Program-made: the position numbers and the translations under genes
In this document: piece by piece, positions 7,568-14,826 of the stretch
Numbering within the stretch: position 1 is the first letter of the stretch
Layout of the letters: the number at the start of each line of letters is the position of its first letter
NCBI GenBank assembly: GCA_019114005.1
Contig: DXGH01000051.1
Span: forward strand, 1-64,000
Direction: 5' to 3'
Length of the DNA stretch: 64,000 bases
Source: Candidatus Acetatifactor stercoripullorum
GTDB taxonomy: Bacteria > Bacillota > Clostridia > Lachnospirales > Lachnospiraceae
Notes under the pieces: generated by a model
The model's database searches: none
What the model was told of the DNA's origin: nothing
What the model saw: the letters and a program-made list of their open reading frames with translations, nothing else

Positions 7568-8606
7568 ATGCCCCAGCTGTACTGCGTCCCCTTACAAACT
7601 TCCCCGCCGCCTGGCCCTTGGCACTGTACGGCGGCAAGGGTGTGTATTTTATTTCATTATAATGGCTGTGGGGCCTTCCTGTAAAGGCATGAAGTTTAAT
7701 TCCGTTTATCCTAATAATAATGTGATTATAATAAAAATGTGGCAAAAATCACTAAATTAGCTATAAAAGCGTGATGGGGTGTGTATATGGAACGATTGAT
7801 TTTGAAAGGTGTGCGTCAGGCCGGTAAGACCTGGATTTTGCAGAATCTGATGCTGGCAAGCGGTCAGAAGATTTTGCTGGAAAAGACCCTCATTATTTTT
7901 GACGAAATACAGAAAGCTCCGGAGCTGTTTGAACAGATTAAGATCATGTGTGACGAAACCGAAGAAAGGGGCTTGTTCTGGCTGACCGGCTCTTGGCAGT
8001 ATAAGATGATGAAAAATATTCGTGATACGCTGGCCGGAAGAATTGGAATTCTGGAGCTATACAGCCTTTCCAAAAATGAAGTGGACGGAAAAATTTTTAC
8101 AAACAAACTGGATTTCTCTCTGCCATGCCTTTTGGAACGGCAGAAAGCAGCAAAAAAGAATGATATTGTGGATGTGTTCGAGCATATTTGGCGCGGCGGG
8201 ATGCCGGATGCTTTAAGCGCAGACGGCGAGCAGAGGCAGGAATATTTCAATTCTTATATTGAAACCTACCTGATGCGGGATGTAGCGGAAGAAGGCGGCA
8301 TAACTGATTCTGTACGTTTCCGAAAATTTCTGAATGCCTGTGCCGCCTTGACCGCCGAGCAGGTAAATTATAAAACTCTGGCGGAGACAGCCGAAATTTC
8401 CCAGCCTACGGCCAAAGAATGGCTGCGGATATTGCAGGGGTCAGGTATTGTTTACCTTCTGCCGCCCTTTGCCAATAATGAATTGAAGCGACTGACAAAA
8501 ACACCAAAGCTGTATTTCTGCGATACTGGGTTATGTGCCTATTTGTCTATGTGGCTGACCAGAGATACCTTGATGAATGGCGCCGCAAATGCCTGTGGAT
8601 TCCAGC

Positions 8607-8635
8607 TTTACTTTAGCGTGCTACTATGGTACAAT
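8607..8635 (+). promoter_or_regulatory. Sigma-A-type promoter for the amino-acid ABC operon
   Basis: TTTACT (8607-8612), a 17-nt spacer and TACAAT (8630-8635). It lies inside the degraded end of the upstream pseudogene and about 90 nt before the binding-protein start. Confidence 0.5.
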
Positions 8636-8663
8636 ACGAAAGGATTTAAAGCTTTTATAAAAG

Positions 8664-8694
8664 GCCGGGGGCAGCGCGGCGCTTCCGGCTTTTT
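8664..8694 (+). terminator. Terminator-like hairpin in the leader of the ABC operon
   Basis: GCCGG (8664-8668) pairs with CCGGC (8685-8689), an inner AGCG/CGCT stem adds stability, and a T5 run follows. It lies between the promoter at 8607-8635 and the lipoprotein ATG at 8728. It therefore either ends transcription from the upstream remnant or acts as an attenuator for the transporter. Confidence 0.55.
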
Positions 8695-8727
8695 CACAAA
8701 GAAGGGCCGCGCAGAAATGAGGAGATT

Positions 8728-9516
8728 ATGAAGAAGAAAGCAGCATTGATTCTAACGGCAGCGCTGGCTGTGGGAAGCCTTACCGCCTGCGGCAGCAAAG
8801 AGACAGGTGGGGAAAGCGCAATGGTTTATGCAGTGGAGGCCGGCTCCGCAGGAGAGGCGGCAGCGGAGGAAAACGGATTTTCCTACAACTCTGTGGCTTC
8901 TCAGGCAGACGCTTTGATGGAGGTGGCTTCTGGAACCTCAGATGCAGCCATTATTGACCTCTTAATGGCAGGAGCCATGATCGGCGAGGGCACCAGCTAT
9001 CCCGATTTGACCTATACCGACCAGCTGACGACGGAGGAGTACGGCGTGGGCTGCCGCAAGGGCTCTGATCTGGCTTCCTATATCAACTCCGTTTTCGGAG
9101 AGGCTTACGCGGATGGAACCATGCTCCAGATTGCCGAACAGTATGGTGTCCAGGAGTCGCTGCTGGAACAGAGCGCGTCAGAGTATACACCCGCTGAGGA
9201 AAGCGATGTGGCGTACATACAGGAAAAAGGGACTTTGATTGTGGGAATCACCGACTTTGAGCCCATGGATTACAAGGATGAATCGGGAAACTGGATCGGC
9301 TTTGACGCGGATATGGCCAGACTGGTGGCGGAAAAGCTGGGCGTTGAGGCACAGTTTGTAGAAATCGACTGGGACAACAAGATCATGGAGCTGGATTCCC
9401 AGAATATTGATGTGGTATGGAACGGCATGACTCTTACCGAGGAAGTGACCTCCGCCATGGAATGCACCAATGCTTACTGCAACAACGCACAGGTAGTTGT
9501 GGTGCCGGCTGAATAG
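8728..9516 (+). CDS. Amino-acid ABC substrate-binding lipoprotein with permuted lobes
   Basis: A secreted lipoprotein: signal peptide with lipobox LTAC, lipidated Cys21. The 262 residues hold a complete SBP_bac_3-type domain in swapped order. Residues about 33-147 are what is normally the second half (YAVEAGSAGEAAA, SGTSDAAIID, LTTEEYGVGCRKGSDL, YADGTMLQIAEQYG). A linker (148-168) follows, and residues 169-262 are the normal first half (GTLIVGITDFEPMDYKD, WIGFDADMARLVAEKLGV, DVVWNGMTLTEE, AYCNNAQVVVVPAE), ending exactly where the first hinge strand would lead into lobe II. Both halves look complete, so this is a circular permutation rather than a truncation. The downstream permease and ATPase genes support a working polar amino-acid importer. 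Confidence 0.85.
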   Translation: MKKKAALILTAALAVGSLTACGSKETGGESAMVYAVEAGSAGEAAAEENGFSYNSVASQADALMEVASGTSDAAIIDLLMAGAMIGEGTSYPDLTYTDQLTTEEYGVGCRKGSDLASYINSVFGEAYADGTMLQIAEQYGVQESLLEQSASEYTPAEESDVAYIQEKGTLIVGITDFEPMDYKDESGNWIGFDADMARLVAEKLGVEAQFVEIDWDNKIMELDSQNIDVVWNGMTLTEEVTSAMECTNAYCNNAQVVVVPAE

Positions 9517-9538
9517 ACCGGGAGAAAAGAGGGAAATT

Positions 9539-10195
9539 ATGTTTTGGACTGTGACACTATCGCTGCTGAACGGTCTGGCTACAACCTTTCAGATTTTCAT
9601 ACTGACCCTTTTGTTTTCGCTGCCCTTAGGACTGCTGTTTGCCTTTGCATCCATGAGCAGATGCAGGCTGCTTCGCTATTTCATGCAGCTTGTAGTCTGG
9701 GTAGTCAGGGGAACGCCTCTGATGCTGCAGCTGATCATTATTTTTTACGGGCCGGGGCTGTGGCTGGATCACAATATCTGGAGCGGCAATGAGACGGGGC
9801 GGCTGACGGCCACGGTGGTGGCTTTTACCTTCAATTATGCCTGCTATTTTTCGGTAATCTTTCGGGGTGGAATCGAGGGTGTGCCTGCAGGACAGCGGGA
9901 AGCCGGCCAGGTGCTGGGCATGACCCGCAGCCAGATTTTTTTCAAGATCACGCTGCTGCAGATGATCAAGCGGGTGGTGCCTCCCATGTCCAACGAGGTG
10001 ATTACCCTGGTGAAGGATACTTCTCTTGCCAGGATTATTGCCGCCTACGAGCTGACCTTTGCGGGCTATTCCTTTATGAAGTCCGATGGGATTACCTGGC
10101 CTTTGTTTTACACGGGCGTATTTTACCTGGTGTTTGTAGGCATTCTGACGCTTTTGTTCAATTATTTGGAGCGCAGGCTGGATTATTTCAGGTAG
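9539..10195 (+). CDS. Amino-acid ABC transporter permease (HisM/GlnP-type)
   Basis: A 218-residue inner-membrane protein. The N-terminal segment LLNGLATTFQIFILTLLFSL is the usual first helix of polar amino-acid permeases. The coupling EAA loop appears as VPAGQREAGQVLGMTRSQIFFKITL, and about five membrane spans are visible. It would form a homodimeric channel with the ATPase encoded next. The start at 9539 is chosen because GAGGGAAA lies upstream and the family N-terminus begins there. It follows the binding protein by 22 nt. Confidence 0.92.
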   Translation: MFWTVTLSLLNGLATTFQIFILTLLFSLPLGLLFAFASMSRCRLLRYFMQLVVWVVRGTPLMLQLIIIFYGPGLWLDHNIWSGNETGRLTATVVAFTFNYACYFSVIFRGGIEGVPAGQREAGQVLGMTRSQIFFKITLLQMIKRVVPPMSNEVITLVKDTSLARIIAAYELTFAGYSFMKSDGITWPLFYTGVFYLVFVGILTLLFNYLERRLDYFR

Positions 10196-10220
10196 AGGAT
10201 TTCAGATAAGGAGTTGACTC

Positions 10221-11006
10221 ATGGCAATTTTGGAAGTAACAGAGATTGAAAAGCATTTTGGAAACACAAGGGTGTTAGAAAACGTCAGCTTTTCTCTGGA
10301 GGAAGGAAATGCGTTAGCCATCATCGGCTCCTCCGGCTCGGGAAAGACCACGCTGCTGCGGTGCCTGAATTTTTTGGAGACGCCCGACAGGGGAGTGATC
10401 ACTGTCCGGGGAGAGAAGCTTTTTGATGCCTCCCTTCCTGCAAAGGAGCGGGAGAGAGACCTTCGCAAAAAACGCCTGCATTTTGGCATGGTGTTTCAGT
10501 CCTTTCACTTGTTTCCCCAGTATACGGCCTTGGAGAACGTGACGCTGGCAGAGCTTTTGCTGGCAAAGGAGCGGCCGGATTTTAAACAGAGGAAACGGGA
10601 AATCATGGAGGAGATCGACGCCCATGGAAGAGAGCTGCTGGAACGGATGGGACTGTCCGAAAGAAGCGGGCATTATCCCCATCAGCTTTCGGGAGGGCAG
10701 CAGCAGCGGGTGGCCATTGCCAGGGCGCTGGCGCTTAAGCCGGACATCCTGTGCTTTGACGAGCCTACATCAGCCCTGGACCCGGAGCTGACGGGAGAGG
10801 TGCTTAAGGTGATCAGAGGGCTTGCACAGCAAAAAACCACCATGATTATTGTGACCCATGAGATGGCCTTTGCAAGAGATGTGGCAGATCAGGTTATTTT
10901 TATGGACGAGGGTGTGATCGTGGAGCAGGGAGATCCCAGACAGGTGATCGATAACCCCAGGCAGGAACGTACAAAGCAGTTTTTGGCCCGGTACACGCAA
11001 GGGTGA
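10221..11006 (+). CDS. Amino-acid ABC transporter ATP-binding protein (GlnQ-type)
   Basis: A 261-residue ATPase with Walker A GSSGSGKTT (36-44), Q-loop in FGMVFQSFHLFPQYT, signature LSGGQQQRVAIARAL, Walker B ILCFDEPTSALDPE and the switch histidine in IVTHEMAFARD. It is slightly longer than typical GlnQ (about 240) because of an insert (LAKERPDFKQRKREIMEEID) between the Q-loop and the signature. It is the last gene of the binding protein-permease-ATPase operon and is followed by a clear terminator. Confidence 0.94.
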   Translation: MAILEVTEIEKHFGNTRVLENVSFSLEEGNALAIIGSSGSGKTTLLRCLNFLETPDRGVITVRGEKLFDASLPAKERERDLRKKRLHFGMVFQSFHLFPQYTALENVTLAELLLAKERPDFKQRKREIMEEIDAHGRELLERMGLSERSGHYPHQLSGGQQQRVAIARALALKPDILCFDEPTSALDPELTGEVLKVIRGLAQQKTTMIIVTHEMAFARDVADQVIFMDEGVIVEQGDPRQVIDNPRQERTKQFLARYTQG

Positions 11007-11016
11007 GCGGGCGCAG

Positions 11017-11052
11017 AAAACGGGCAGTCTCACAGGGAGGCTGCCCGTTTTT
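11017..11052 (+). terminator. Intrinsic terminator of the amino-acid ABC operon
   Basis: AAAACGGGCAG (11017-11027) pairs with CTGCCCGTTTT (11041-11051) across a 13-nt loop and is followed by Ts. An outer GCGC/GCGC pair extends the stem. Confidence 0.85.
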
Positions 11053-11082
11053 GCGCGTGGTATATCCCAAGGCGCATATTTT

Positions 11083-12816
11083 CTACTGAATTCCCCAGCT
11101 TAGGCTGATTTCCTGGAGCTTTACCATGTGAGGGTAAATCCTGCCTGTTTCCATCAGTCCGGCAGGCGTGCCCTGTTCAGCCACGGTTCCCTCGGAAAGC
11201 ACCACTACCTTGTCGGCGCCGCTTACCGTGCGCATGCGGTGGGCGATAACGAGAACGGTTTTGTCCTTGATCAGCCTTGACAGGGCGGTCTGTATCAGGG
11301 TTTCGTTCTCTACGTCGAGACTTGCAGTGGCCTCGTCCAAAAGAACAATGGGGGCGTCCTTGAGAAAGGCTCTGGCGATGGAGATACGCTGTCTTTCTCC
11401 GCCGGAAAGCTCACAGCCGTTTTCGCCGATCATGCTGTGGTAGCCATGGGGAAGCTTTTGGGCAAATTCCTCACAGTTTGCCAGCCTTGCCGCCGCAATC
11501 ACCTCCTCGTCGGTGGCGTCCTTTCTGCCGATTCGGATATTTTCCATGATGGTATTGTTAAAAAGGGTCACATCCTGAAACACGATGGAATATAAAGAAA
11601 GCAGTGTTTCCGGTTCCACTGACGTGATATCCATGCCGCCCACGGTGATTTTTCCCCGGTCCGCATCCCAGAATCTTGCAGCCAGCCGGGAAACGGTGGT
11701 TTTACCGCCGCCGGAGGGCCCCACCAGAGCGGTGACCTCTCCCTGCTTTGCGGTAAAGGATACATCCTTTAAAATGGTTTCCCCGCTGTTGTAGGCAAAG
11801 CCCACATGGTCAAATACAATATCATATCCCTGGCAGGTTATGCTGTGGCCGCCCTTTTGAATGGGATGGTCAAGAATCTCATTCATCCGGTTTATATTTG
11901 TCTTGGAGGAAATCACTGCGGCAAGATTCTGCAGCGCGCCCTCCAAAGGGGAGTAGAGTCTGGACGCCACTAGGAGAAACAGAAAGAACAGGGGAATATC
12001 AATTTCACCGTTTATGAGCAGTACAGAGCCAGTAAGGGCCACGGTGGCAATTCCAAACTTTAAGATCAGCGTGGAGGACACCACAAACAAGGCGGTTCCC
12101 AGCTCTGTGACAATATGGCGCTTTTCTGCGTAATCAATTTTTTTGTCCAATCCCTGTAAATAGTCCTGCTCCGCGTTGTTGGCCTTCAGATCCTGAAGGC
12201 TTTCAATGCACTCCTGCACGCCTTCCTCCAGAGCCACATTGGCCTTTACGGATTTGCTGTTGAAATATTCCTGTATCCGGGAGGACAACAGGGTGATGGC
12301 AAAGGCAATGGGAAGCACCCAGACCGCCGAAAGGGCCATGCGCCAGTCGTAGAAAAAGAGGCAGACAGAGATCAGGGTGGTAGAGATCAGAGAGCCGATC
12401 AGAGCGGGCACATAATGGGAAAAGGTAGTTTCCAGTGTGGCACAGTCCCCCATAATGGAATTTGTCAGATCCGCAAGATCCTTTTTCCCGAAAAAGGACA
12501 GTGGAATTTTGCGCAGCTTTTCCGCCAGAGAAATCCGCCTCACGCCGCTTTCCACATAGGTTGCCAGATAGGTGGCATTATACTGAAACCAAGTCACCCA
12601 AAAGATCAGGGCGAGACAAAACACGCAGCCTGCTGTGTAGAAGGCAATCCGGCTCCCCCAAACGCCTCCGTTCATGGTATCCAGCACAAACTGATACAAT
12701 AGTCCCACGGGAAGCATAAAAGAGAGGTCTTGTAAGACGCAGGCCAGGCATCCCTTGATCAAATCCACCGCTCCCTGTCTTGATAAAGCGAAACGTCTCT
12801 GTAATTTCTGAATCAT
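11083..12816 (-). CDS. ABC exporter half-transporter, subunit 2
   Basis: A 577-residue type-I exporter subunit: an ABC_membrane domain with six predicted helices (about 1-310), then a nucleotide-binding domain with Walker A VGPSGGGKTT, signature LSGGERQRISIARAF, Walker B IVLLDEATASLD and the switch histidine in VLVIAHRMRT. The start codon overlaps the stop of the upstream half-transporter (ATGA), pointing to an obligate heterodimer. Such pairs under TetR control usually export drugs, bile-type compounds or peptides, and some relatives (IrtAB/YbtPQ-like) move siderophores; the substrate is unknown. Confidence 0.9.
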   Translation of the reverse strand: MIQKLQRRFALSRQGAVDLIKGCLACVLQDLSFMLPVGLLYQFVLDTMNGGVWGSRIAFYTAGCVFCLALIFWVTWFQYNATYLATYVESGVRRISLAEKLRKIPLSFFGKKDLADLTNSIMGDCATLETTFSHYVPALIGSLISTTLISVCLFFYDWRMALSAVWVLPIAFAITLLSSRIQEYFNSKSVKANVALEEGVQECIESLQDLKANNAEQDYLQGLDKKIDYAEKRHIVTELGTALFVVSSTLILKFGIATVALTGSVLLINGEIDIPLFFLFLLVASRLYSPLEGALQNLAAVISSKTNINRMNEILDHPIQKGGHSITCQGYDIVFDHVGFAYNSGETILKDVSFTAKQGEVTALVGPSGGGKTTVSRLAARFWDADRGKITVGGMDITSVEPETLLSLYSIVFQDVTLFNNTIMENIRIGRKDATDEEVIAAARLANCEEFAQKLPHGYHSMIGENGCELSGGERQRISIARAFLKDAPIVLLDEATASLDVENETLIQTALSRLIKDKTVLVIAHRMRTVSGADKVVVLSEGTVAEQGTPAGLMETGRIYPHMVKLQEISLSWGIQ

Positions 12817-14588
12817 TCTGCTGCCTCCTTTTCAATTTTCCATTCTGCCGCTTTCGCGTAATTATTCCACATATGGGTAAAAATACCGTTCTTTTCAAGC
12901 AGTTCTTTGTGTGTGCCCCTTTCGGCAATCTGGCCGTCCTGCAGCACATAGATACAGTTCGCTTCGGTGATGGAGGAGAGCCTGTGTGCGATCATAAGCA
13001 CTGTCTTTCCCTTGGAGAGGGTGGTCAGGGCCTGCTGAACACGCACCTCATTGTCTGGATCAGCAAATGCTGTAGCCTCATCAAGAATCAGTATGGGCGC
13101 GTTTTTTAAAATGGCACGGGCAATGGCGATTCTCTGCTGTTCGCCGCCGGATAAGTAAACGCCCTTTGTGCCTACAACGGTGTCCACGCCCTTTGGCAGC
13201 TTTTCTATGATATCCGTGCACTGGGCCGCCTGCAGCGCGCGGTCAACCTCCTTGCGGGACGCGCCGGGCCTGCCCATGCGCACATTTTCAAGTATGGACG
13301 CCTTGATCAGGCGGCTGTTTTGAAACACGAAGGAAACCTGTTCCATGAGCTTCTCCTTGGGAATTTGTCTGATATCGATATTTCCGATGAGAACCCGGCC
13401 CTTCTGGGGGTCAAAAAATCTGGCTGCCAGATTGGCAAGGGTGGTCTTGCCGCCGCCGGAGGGCCCCACCAATGCAACGGTTTCTCCCGGCTGTATGGTC
13501 ATGGAAACATCCAAAAGAGCGTCCTTTTTGCCGTCATAGCTGTAGCTTACGTGCTCCAGCGTAATGGAATAGTCTTGAGGCTCCTGGGGCGCAGCGCTCT
13601 CCTCCAGGGGCTTTTGGGCCAAAAGGTCGTCGATTCTTTGCAGGGCGTCGTTTACAATCATGGAATCCTCGCTCATAAACATGATCTTTGTGAGAGTGGT
13701 GCCGATGACCGGCGTAATAATGATATAAAAAATCAGATTTAATAAAAATTCACTGTCAACGCCGTTTCTGGTAAAAAGAATGCCTCCTGCAATCAAAAAG
13801 GCAAACACGGCGTTGATGGCAGTGGTATAGCACATCATGGGAAGCCGCAGCGCCTTGGTGTAGGCAATCACCCATTTTTCATAGTTGTCAATGGAGGTCT
13901 TGAACCGCTTGAAGGAAAATACGGTCTGCCCAAAGGTTTTTACCACAGGTATGCCCCTGACATACTCCACCGCTTCGTTGGACATATCCGACAGGGCGTT
14001 TTGGTACTCCTTCATTTTTTCTTCCATGTCCTTTCCGGTCATTTTCATCATAATCAGAAAGCCGAGCACTACCGGAATCAGACTTAAAAGCCCAAGCCGC
14101 CAGTCAAACACAAGCAGTAGAAGGAGCAGCCCTATGGGCGTGGCGATGGCTCCGGCCTTATCCGGCAGTCTGTGGGCCAGATAAGTTTCCGTGGCCGTGC
14201 TGGAGGTGTTGACGATCCTGCGCAGCCTGCCGCTGCCATACTTCTGGGTTACCCCCAAGGGCAGCGCCGCAATATGACGCATCAGCTCCTTTCGGATGTT
14301 GGAAGCCACTCTAAAGGCGCTTAGGTGGGAACACATCAGGGCAGAGATATAGACCACAATGGATAAAACCGCAAACCCCACGGCAGCCCAGCCGTAGGCC
14401 GTCACATTCCCAGCCTGTGAGAAATTGGGAGAAGCCGCCAGAATATCGCGGATAATGCGCCACAGGCACCAAAAGGGAACCAGGGCCAGCAGCGCGCTTG
14501 CCGCCGACAATATCCAGGACAGCCAGGTGAGGACCCTATGCCCTCCGGCATAGTCCATCAGCCTTGATAAATTTGACTTTTGTTTCAT
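12813..14588 (-). CDS. ABC exporter half-transporter, subunit 1
   Basis: A 591-residue fused membrane/ATPase subunit, with six helices up to about residue 320 and an ATPase domain with Walker A VGPSGGGKTT, signature LSGGEQQRIAIARAI and Walker B ILILDEATAFADPD. The D-loop is atypical (AFAD instead of ASLD), hinting at asymmetry between the two ATP sites. The start at 14588 (MKQKSNL) is preferred because AAGGAGG sits 7 nt upstream. It is the first gene of the two-gene operon, downstream of the TetR gene and the 204-bp palindromic element. Confidence 0.9.
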   Translation of the reverse strand: MKQKSNLSRLMDYAGGHRVLTWLSWILSAASALLALVPFWCLWRIIRDILAASPNFSQAGNVTAYGWAAVGFAVLSIVVYISALMCSHLSAFRVASNIRKELMRHIAALPLGVTQKYGSGRLRRIVNTSSTATETYLAHRLPDKAGAIATPIGLLLLLLVFDWRLGLLSLIPVVLGFLIMMKMTGKDMEEKMKEYQNALSDMSNEAVEYVRGIPVVKTFGQTVFSFKRFKTSIDNYEKWVIAYTKALRLPMMCYTTAINAVFAFLIAGGILFTRNGVDSEFLLNLIFYIIITPVIGTTLTKIMFMSEDSMIVNDALQRIDDLLAQKPLEESAAPQEPQDYSITLEHVSYSYDGKKDALLDVSMTIQPGETVALVGPSGGGKTTLANLAARFFDPQKGRVLIGNIDIRQIPKEKLMEQVSFVFQNSRLIKASILENVRMGRPGASRKEVDRALQAAQCTDIIEKLPKGVDTVVGTKGVYLSGGEQQRIAIARAILKNAPILILDEATAFADPDNEVRVQQALTTLSKGKTVLMIAHRLSSITEANCIYVLQDGQIAERGTHKELLEKNGIFTHMWNNYAKAAEWKIEKEAAE

Positions 14589-14622
14589 TGAAAAACCTCC
14601 TTGCCTATACTTGGAATGGTTA

Positions 14623-14826
14623 GATGATTGCAAAACAAATTATTTTGAAGGTTTCTATGGGCACATTTCATATTTCAACACAGACACGCTTTCGCTCCAA
14701 GCTGACCGCAGCGGTACATAAGGCTGCAAAGGACGCAGCCTAAATACCGGCGGTCAGCAAGGGTCTGCTTATGAAACATGCAATGTGCACGATTTCACAT
14801 AAAATAAATTTCGTTTTGCACTCATC
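14623..14826. repeat. 204-bp imperfect palindrome (possible MITE or structured leader)
   Basis: Nested inverted repeats fill the gap between tetR and the exporter genes. Outer arms: GATGATTGCAAAAC with AAATTATTTT on the left against AAAATAAATTTC and GTTTTGCACTCATC on the right, about 24 of 26 paired. Second layer: GCACATTTCATATTTCA against TGAAACATGCAATGTGC. Inner stems: GCTGACCG/CGGTCAGC with CGGTA/TACCG, and AGGCTGC/GCAGCCT around a 7-nt loop. No coding frame fits. It lies in the 5' region of the exporter operon, so it may act as its leader or be a non-autonomous palindromic insert. Confidence 0.6.

Follow-up and report, generated by a model that had tools for sequence, protein, structure and literature searches.

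The window analysed here, 64,000 nucleotides from the start of contig DXGH01000051.1 of Candidatus Acetatifactor stercoripullorum, carries at 8728–9516 (+) an intact open reading frame (ORF) of 262 amino acids that encodes a lipoprotein, and this lipoprotein is very probably a real, working substrate-binding protein (SBP) of class II (SBP_bac_3) whose fold is circularly permuted. Canonical SBP_bac_3 proteins run in the order A-B-C, where A is the N-terminal segment of lobe I, B is lobe II and C is the C-terminal segment of lobe I. The focal protein instead runs B-C-A; hinge 1 is cut and a short linker joins the old termini, so lobe I is contiguous (C-linker-A). Each of its segments has a homologous counterpart in a single canonical protein, where they stand in the unrotated order, as expected of a natural permutant.

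Segment order and predicted fold

A possible ribosome-binding site read from the sequence (AGGAG, 8720–8724, +) precedes the gene, which begins with a signal peptide (residues 1–20; 8728–8787, +) and an LTAC lipobox (residues 18–21; 8779–8790, +) containing Cys21, both as described in a first-pass annotation of this DNA. On the same strand, segment-specific hidden Markov models (HMMs) place segment B, canonically in mid-protein, at residues 32–99 (8821–9024), segment C, canonically the C-terminal end, at residues 100–147 (9025–9168), and segment A, canonically first, at residues 163–259 (9214–9504), where it stops at hinge strand 1; the intervening linker (residues 148–162; 9169–9213) bridges the canonical C- and N-termini. 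Pfam family PF00497 (SBP_bac_3) scores 93.2 bits (gathering score 26.4), and its match is confined to the C-terminal part of the protein, residues 171–261 corresponding to profile positions 2–92 of 132. When PDB sequences were searched with phmmer, Thermotoga maritima ArgBP (TmArgBP) was matched as two stretches in swapped order, residues 164–259 to chain positions 6–102 and residues 34–131 to 121–218. These searches bear out the swap of SBP_bac_3 halves that the annotation had proposed, with one correction: its "second half" does come first, but is not lobe II alone, being B plus segment C of lobe I. The annotation had also put the lipid anchor on lobe II, and at the sequence level the lipidated N-terminus indeed enters the first lobe II strand, near the hinge; it had suggested that this could alter docking on the permease.

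Structure prediction with AlphaFold2 gave a confident single-chain model (predicted local distance difference test, pLDDT, 93; predicted TM-score, pTM, 0.85), in which segment A, over 95 residues, aligns with PDB structures at 1.2 Å, and the C-A lobe does so at 2.9 Å. The model predicts an ordinary two-lobed cleft with one unbroken hinge strand holding the lobes. The lipid tether would leave from the lobe II/hinge region, and the protein would capture its ligand and dock on the neighbouring permease-ATPase in the manner of a normal SBP.

Relatives with the same order

From 351 relatives in genome contigs, 80 loci that ranked best with the permuted query were retained, and this ranking enriches the set for the B-C-A order. 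That order is present in 79 of the 80 fetched genome loci, whose hosts include Roseburia faecis M72, Roseburia porci, Oscillibacter sp. PC13 and bacterium 1xD42-87; the exception (L081) is an incomplete A-B-C-A lying at one edge of a contig of 3,028 bases. A lipobox-like motif lies ahead of segment B in 72 of the 80 distinct focal ORFs. The ratio of nonsynonymous to synonymous substitution rates (dN/dS) is 0.053–0.078 in four of seven comparisons, dS being saturated in the remaining three, and the gene is under purifying selection. One permuted SBP gene was found in the source genome; the canonical-order SBP closest to it there shows 35% identity over the lobe-I match. The permuted gene is real and not an artefact; same-order homologues of the kind that the annotation had suggested seeking exist in number, and its view that the protein is functional is supported by the low dN/dS, the link to the operon and the conservation of the gene.

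Canonical relatives and possible origin

In other genomes of the family an SBP-permease-ATPase operon of the same kind carries a canonical A-B-C SBP. The nearest such normal-order relative (L131/L112) is 78%, 75% and 75% identical to the focal protein in segments A, B and C, respectively, and members with the two orders reach about 76% identity. Among 101 genomes of the genus the permuted form occurs in 15, the canonical form (lobe I at least 53% identical) in 11, and both in none; four canonical loci fetched from these genomes (L125–L128) showed no adjacent permease gene. The focal permuted form was found in eight of 299 family genomes; among the candidates scored, none of the eight gave a second match at E 1e-20.

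The linker between C and A is 14–20 residues long in the 80 distinct focal ORFs (15 or 16 in 73 of them) and looks like GVQxxLxEQ, the tail that ends canonical proteins, joined to their mature N-terminus, SDVAYIQxKGTL, without a signal peptide. Only 1–4 residues follow segment A, and the A-to-B hinge stretch, which is 16 residues in all 40 distinct canonical sequences, is absent from the permuted proteins. The make-up of the linker and the missing hinge stretch fit a duplication or tandem fusion whose outer parts were lost. A tandem duplication, or a tandem fusion of substrate-binding domains (SBDs), could have given A-B-C-A-B-C; the first A would have been lost behind the signal peptide, as would the internal stop and internal signal peptide, and the gene would have been truncated after the second A. 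A distant permuted protein (P0241) gives a colinear match to the SBD1-SBD2 tandem of GlnPQ across its junction.

Three cyclic orders and their recurrence

Segment-HMM matches in 201 ORFs reveal three cyclic orders, 98 being B-C-A, 83 A-B-C and eight C-A-B, with seven C-A, three A-C, one A-B and one A-B-C-A making up the remainder; these counts come from loci found with a permuted query, include some duplicates and are not frequencies. In the C-A-B proteins (L164, L165, L167, L169, L173, L174, L176 and L177) it is hinge 2 that is cut, not hinge 1 as in the focal protein, and all eight genomes behind them share family code f42.

Permease sequences provide a tree that is independent of the segment-order trait. 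From 161 distinct permeases, thinned to 98, a quick first tree required 12 changes over six labels and had long branches; removal of distant rows (L002, L114, L115, L116, L117, L120, L122 and L124) left 90. In the 90-row tree the focal B-C-A proteins (22 rows plus L081) form one clade (support 100/98) beside canonical rows, while L161, L162, L163 and L175 (B-C-A, 41–45% identical) fall in a separate clade with canonical rows; five order changes are needed, and a single clade for all B-C-A proteins is rejected by the approximately unbiased (AU) test (p 0.0104). A tree of the SBPs themselves, built on concatenated segments, recovers the focal clade (100/91), also needs five order changes, and rejects both a single B-C-A clade (AU p 0.00012) and a single C-A-B clade (AU p 0.00911). 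The focal proteins are one clade, and the rejection of one B-C-A clade in both trees argues that the rearrangement recurred within one transporter family. Five changes are the best reading; in the absence of any return to canonical order, at least two would belong to B-C-A and one to C-A-B.

Further cases come from other transporter families: distant B-C-A proteins (L114–L117), and L122, L124 and L152, which are C-A-B by eye. Distant Clostridial tblastn matches were counted only once the segment HMMs set their segments in one frame. One locus (L115:2530–4197) is a B-C-A-permease fusion in a single frame, and another (L120:1969–3552) joins C-A to a permease in one frame, with no B match by the HMMs. 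Near another permuted SBP lies an SBP-like ORF (L046:6268–7167) with C then A at weak scores, perhaps another divergent permutant.

Alternative explanations

Several observations weigh against the interpretation of these proteins as working, repeatedly arisen permutants of an amino acid SBP. Full-length alignments of the model with PDB structures are loose (for example, 199 residues of OpuAC at 4.2 Å; TM 0.53), which may reflect the pseudo-symmetry of the lobes. The focal protein has Val240 in place of a conserved Arg (Val in 71 and Thr in nine of the 80 distinct focal sequences) that binds the ligand carboxylate in LAO and GlnH, and this replacement makes an amino acid less certain as the ligand. 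No credible duplicated intermediate was found among the relatives. On the trees, a single C-A-B clade is not rejected by the permeases (AU p 0.443), and counts of changes cannot separate gain from loss. One old permutation followed by returns to canonical order is unlikely, and on balance we lean slightly toward the view that Clostridial class II amino-acid-type SBPs were permuted repeatedly, at either hinge strand, with more cases in other transporter families; the trees' inability to tell gain from loss keeps this leaning slight. Finally, ribose-binding protein engineered into a circular permutant contained swapped elements (PMC10601554).

That last observation and the shortness of the linker (14–20 residues) would suit a domain-swapped dimer, in which the B-C part of one chain packs against segment A from a second chain and the protein works only as an oligomer. 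This arrangement is unlikely given the confident single-chain model, though a monomer prediction would not reveal swapping, and given that the unbroken C-A stretch can be aligned to Plasmodium PfVFT1 as a single lobe (discussed below). That two halves were fused from different transporters, rather than one gene permuted, is highly improbable: no supporting evidence was found, the three segments are about equally near one canonical relative, and the linker matches the C-tail and N-terminus of its own family. Only marginally less improbable is a sensor or ligand chaperone that is not the main binding protein of the transporter; loss of the presumed carboxylate-binding Arg would agree with such a role, but the gene lies immediately upstream of the permease and ATPase genes, no other close SBP was found in the source genome, and canonical relatives lack the Arg as well. 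Misassembly, which the first-pass annotation had named as a risk, could be suspected from the 73-contig assembly that holds the window and from the mosaic three-lobed relatives in metagenomes (below); together with a decayed gene or chimera it is refuted for practical purposes by an order shared across 79 of 80 loci, named isolates among them, an intact frame and low dN/dS.

Ligand and operon

The working permutant remains the preferred reading, and its most likely role is the ordinary one of solute capture and delivery to the adjoining permease. The focal protein lacks the carboxylate Arg of amino acid SBPs and has the Asp for the amino group: Asp77, invariant in 52 rows, aligns in the phmmer alignment with an Asp of TmArgBP that is presumably the residue binding the alpha-amino group of the ligand. 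Trp215 and Trp231 are invariant. Of 40 distinct canonical sequences from the close relatives, 39 also have Val at the Arg position (the other is unreadable), and Arg is kept in all five B-C-A proteins of the distant family. Loss of the Arg as a result of permutation was considered and rejected, since canonical relatives are also without it. Canonical and permuted members of the close family alike have lost it, a hint that the ligand is unusual; an amine or other non-standard compound is possible, but is a guess.

The SBP gene is followed by genes for an amino-acid-type ABC permease (9539–10195, +; PF00528, and TIGR01726 above cut-off) and an ABC ATPase (10221–11006, +; top NCBIfam match TcyN, below cut-off). 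Upstream, an ORF at 7781–8731 (+) that overlaps the start of the SBP gene matches only the end of AAA_14 (profile 62–127 of 129) and part of DUF4143 (2–103 of 160); it is probably a truncated ATPase gene. Convergent to the operon, two adjoining genes at 11083–14633 (−) resemble ABC exporter halves (ABC_membrane and ABC_tran, from a scan of the first gene only). No regulatory RNA reached the gathering score in 8300–11200, and a scan for promoters and terminators was uninformative (five promoter-like sites against 2.3 expected, three terminator-like sites against 2.9).

Three-lobed proteins and discounted matches

Two protein sets were surveyed for three-lobed forms, one of 121 proteins (120 listed matches plus the query) and one of 120 listed. 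The first holds 35 B-C-A-B-C and 14 A-B-C-A proteins, the second 50 and 11. Among the B-C-A-B-C proteins, 25 of 35 and 45 of 50 belong to at least one discordant pair, defined as at least 97% identical at one end and below 85% (down to 48%) at the other. Such ends mark chimeric assembly or recombination, and on this test of the B-C-A-B-C forms the three-lobed proteins were rejected as duplication intermediates; many are mosaics of permuted and canonical genes, probably assembly chimeras. No complete three-lobed gene is among the matches listed in the genome searches, in which few candidates were scored per genome. The presence of such mosaics in metagenomic protein sets (P0002–P0121 and P0242–P0360) calls for caution with protein databases.

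Colinear tblastn matches in rhizobial and Paracoccus plasmids (26–30% identity) were left out of the count. In Paracoccus, the one examined with gene annotation, the match already begins in the permease gene upstream and the start of the SBP gene falls inside it, so it looks like an extension artefact. The Sinorhizobium match is without gene annotation.

Relation to known proteins

The class II proteins TmArgBP, GlnH and HisJ share with the focal protein the three homologous segments, a counterpart of Asp77 and the operon type, and differ from its B-C-A order, cut hinge 1, lobe II-side anchor and Val240 for Arg. Natural permutant SBPs are known as a kind. TpMglB-2 (Tp0684) is a type I SBP that is circularly permuted and binds glucose; it has been crystallised, and a subclass, Type Ic / Cluster Bc, was proposed for it. 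Like the focal protein it is naturally permuted and tethered; it binds its ligand and changes conformation. Unlike the focal protein it has a type I fold, a sugar ligand and a fourth hinge crossing created by the permutation, and its permuted part is only 13% identical to its counterpart (PMC4990184). The focal protein does not belong to that type I subclass, as its sequence matches are SBP_bac_3 type II proteins; structure listings agree with type II, yet exclude nothing.

Plasmodium PfVFT1 (5jkq) is probably a precedent for a permuted SBP. Its VIA alignment covers C then A (model 91–235, chain 29–197), so that lobe I appears contiguous as in the focal protein, whereas its order would, from the alignment, be C-A-B and it is eukaryotic. 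In the GlnPQ tandem SBD1-SBD2 (6h30), B-C of SBD1 and A of SBD2 together give the permuted order, but both domains are complete and canonical. OpuAC (2b4m and others) fits the focal protein loosely at 12% identity. A domain rearrangement between OpuAC and ProX has perhaps been reported; rearrangement terms are absent from the searched passages of one OpuAC paper (PMC2861598). No report of permuted SBP_bac_3 proteins was recognised in the titles and abstract openings of a literature from which subscription papers were mostly outside; what looks new, within the searchable literature, is the SBP class, the pair of cut points and the repeated rearrangement among relatives.

Implications

The permuted protein is a member of a large clade and not a lone oddity, and its relatives add a second cut point. 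Rearrangements of this kind stay hidden behind Pfam matches and protein names like "transporter substrate-binding domain-containing protein", a blind spot in annotation. Natural sets of SBPs that cover all three cyclic orders, and whose operon partners are homologous, make possible direct tests of the role of each hinge strand and of anchor position in ABC import. If these SBPs were indeed permuted repeatedly, the hinge strands would be natural evolutionary breakpoints, at which hinge mechanics or lipid tethering could be retuned while transport is kept.
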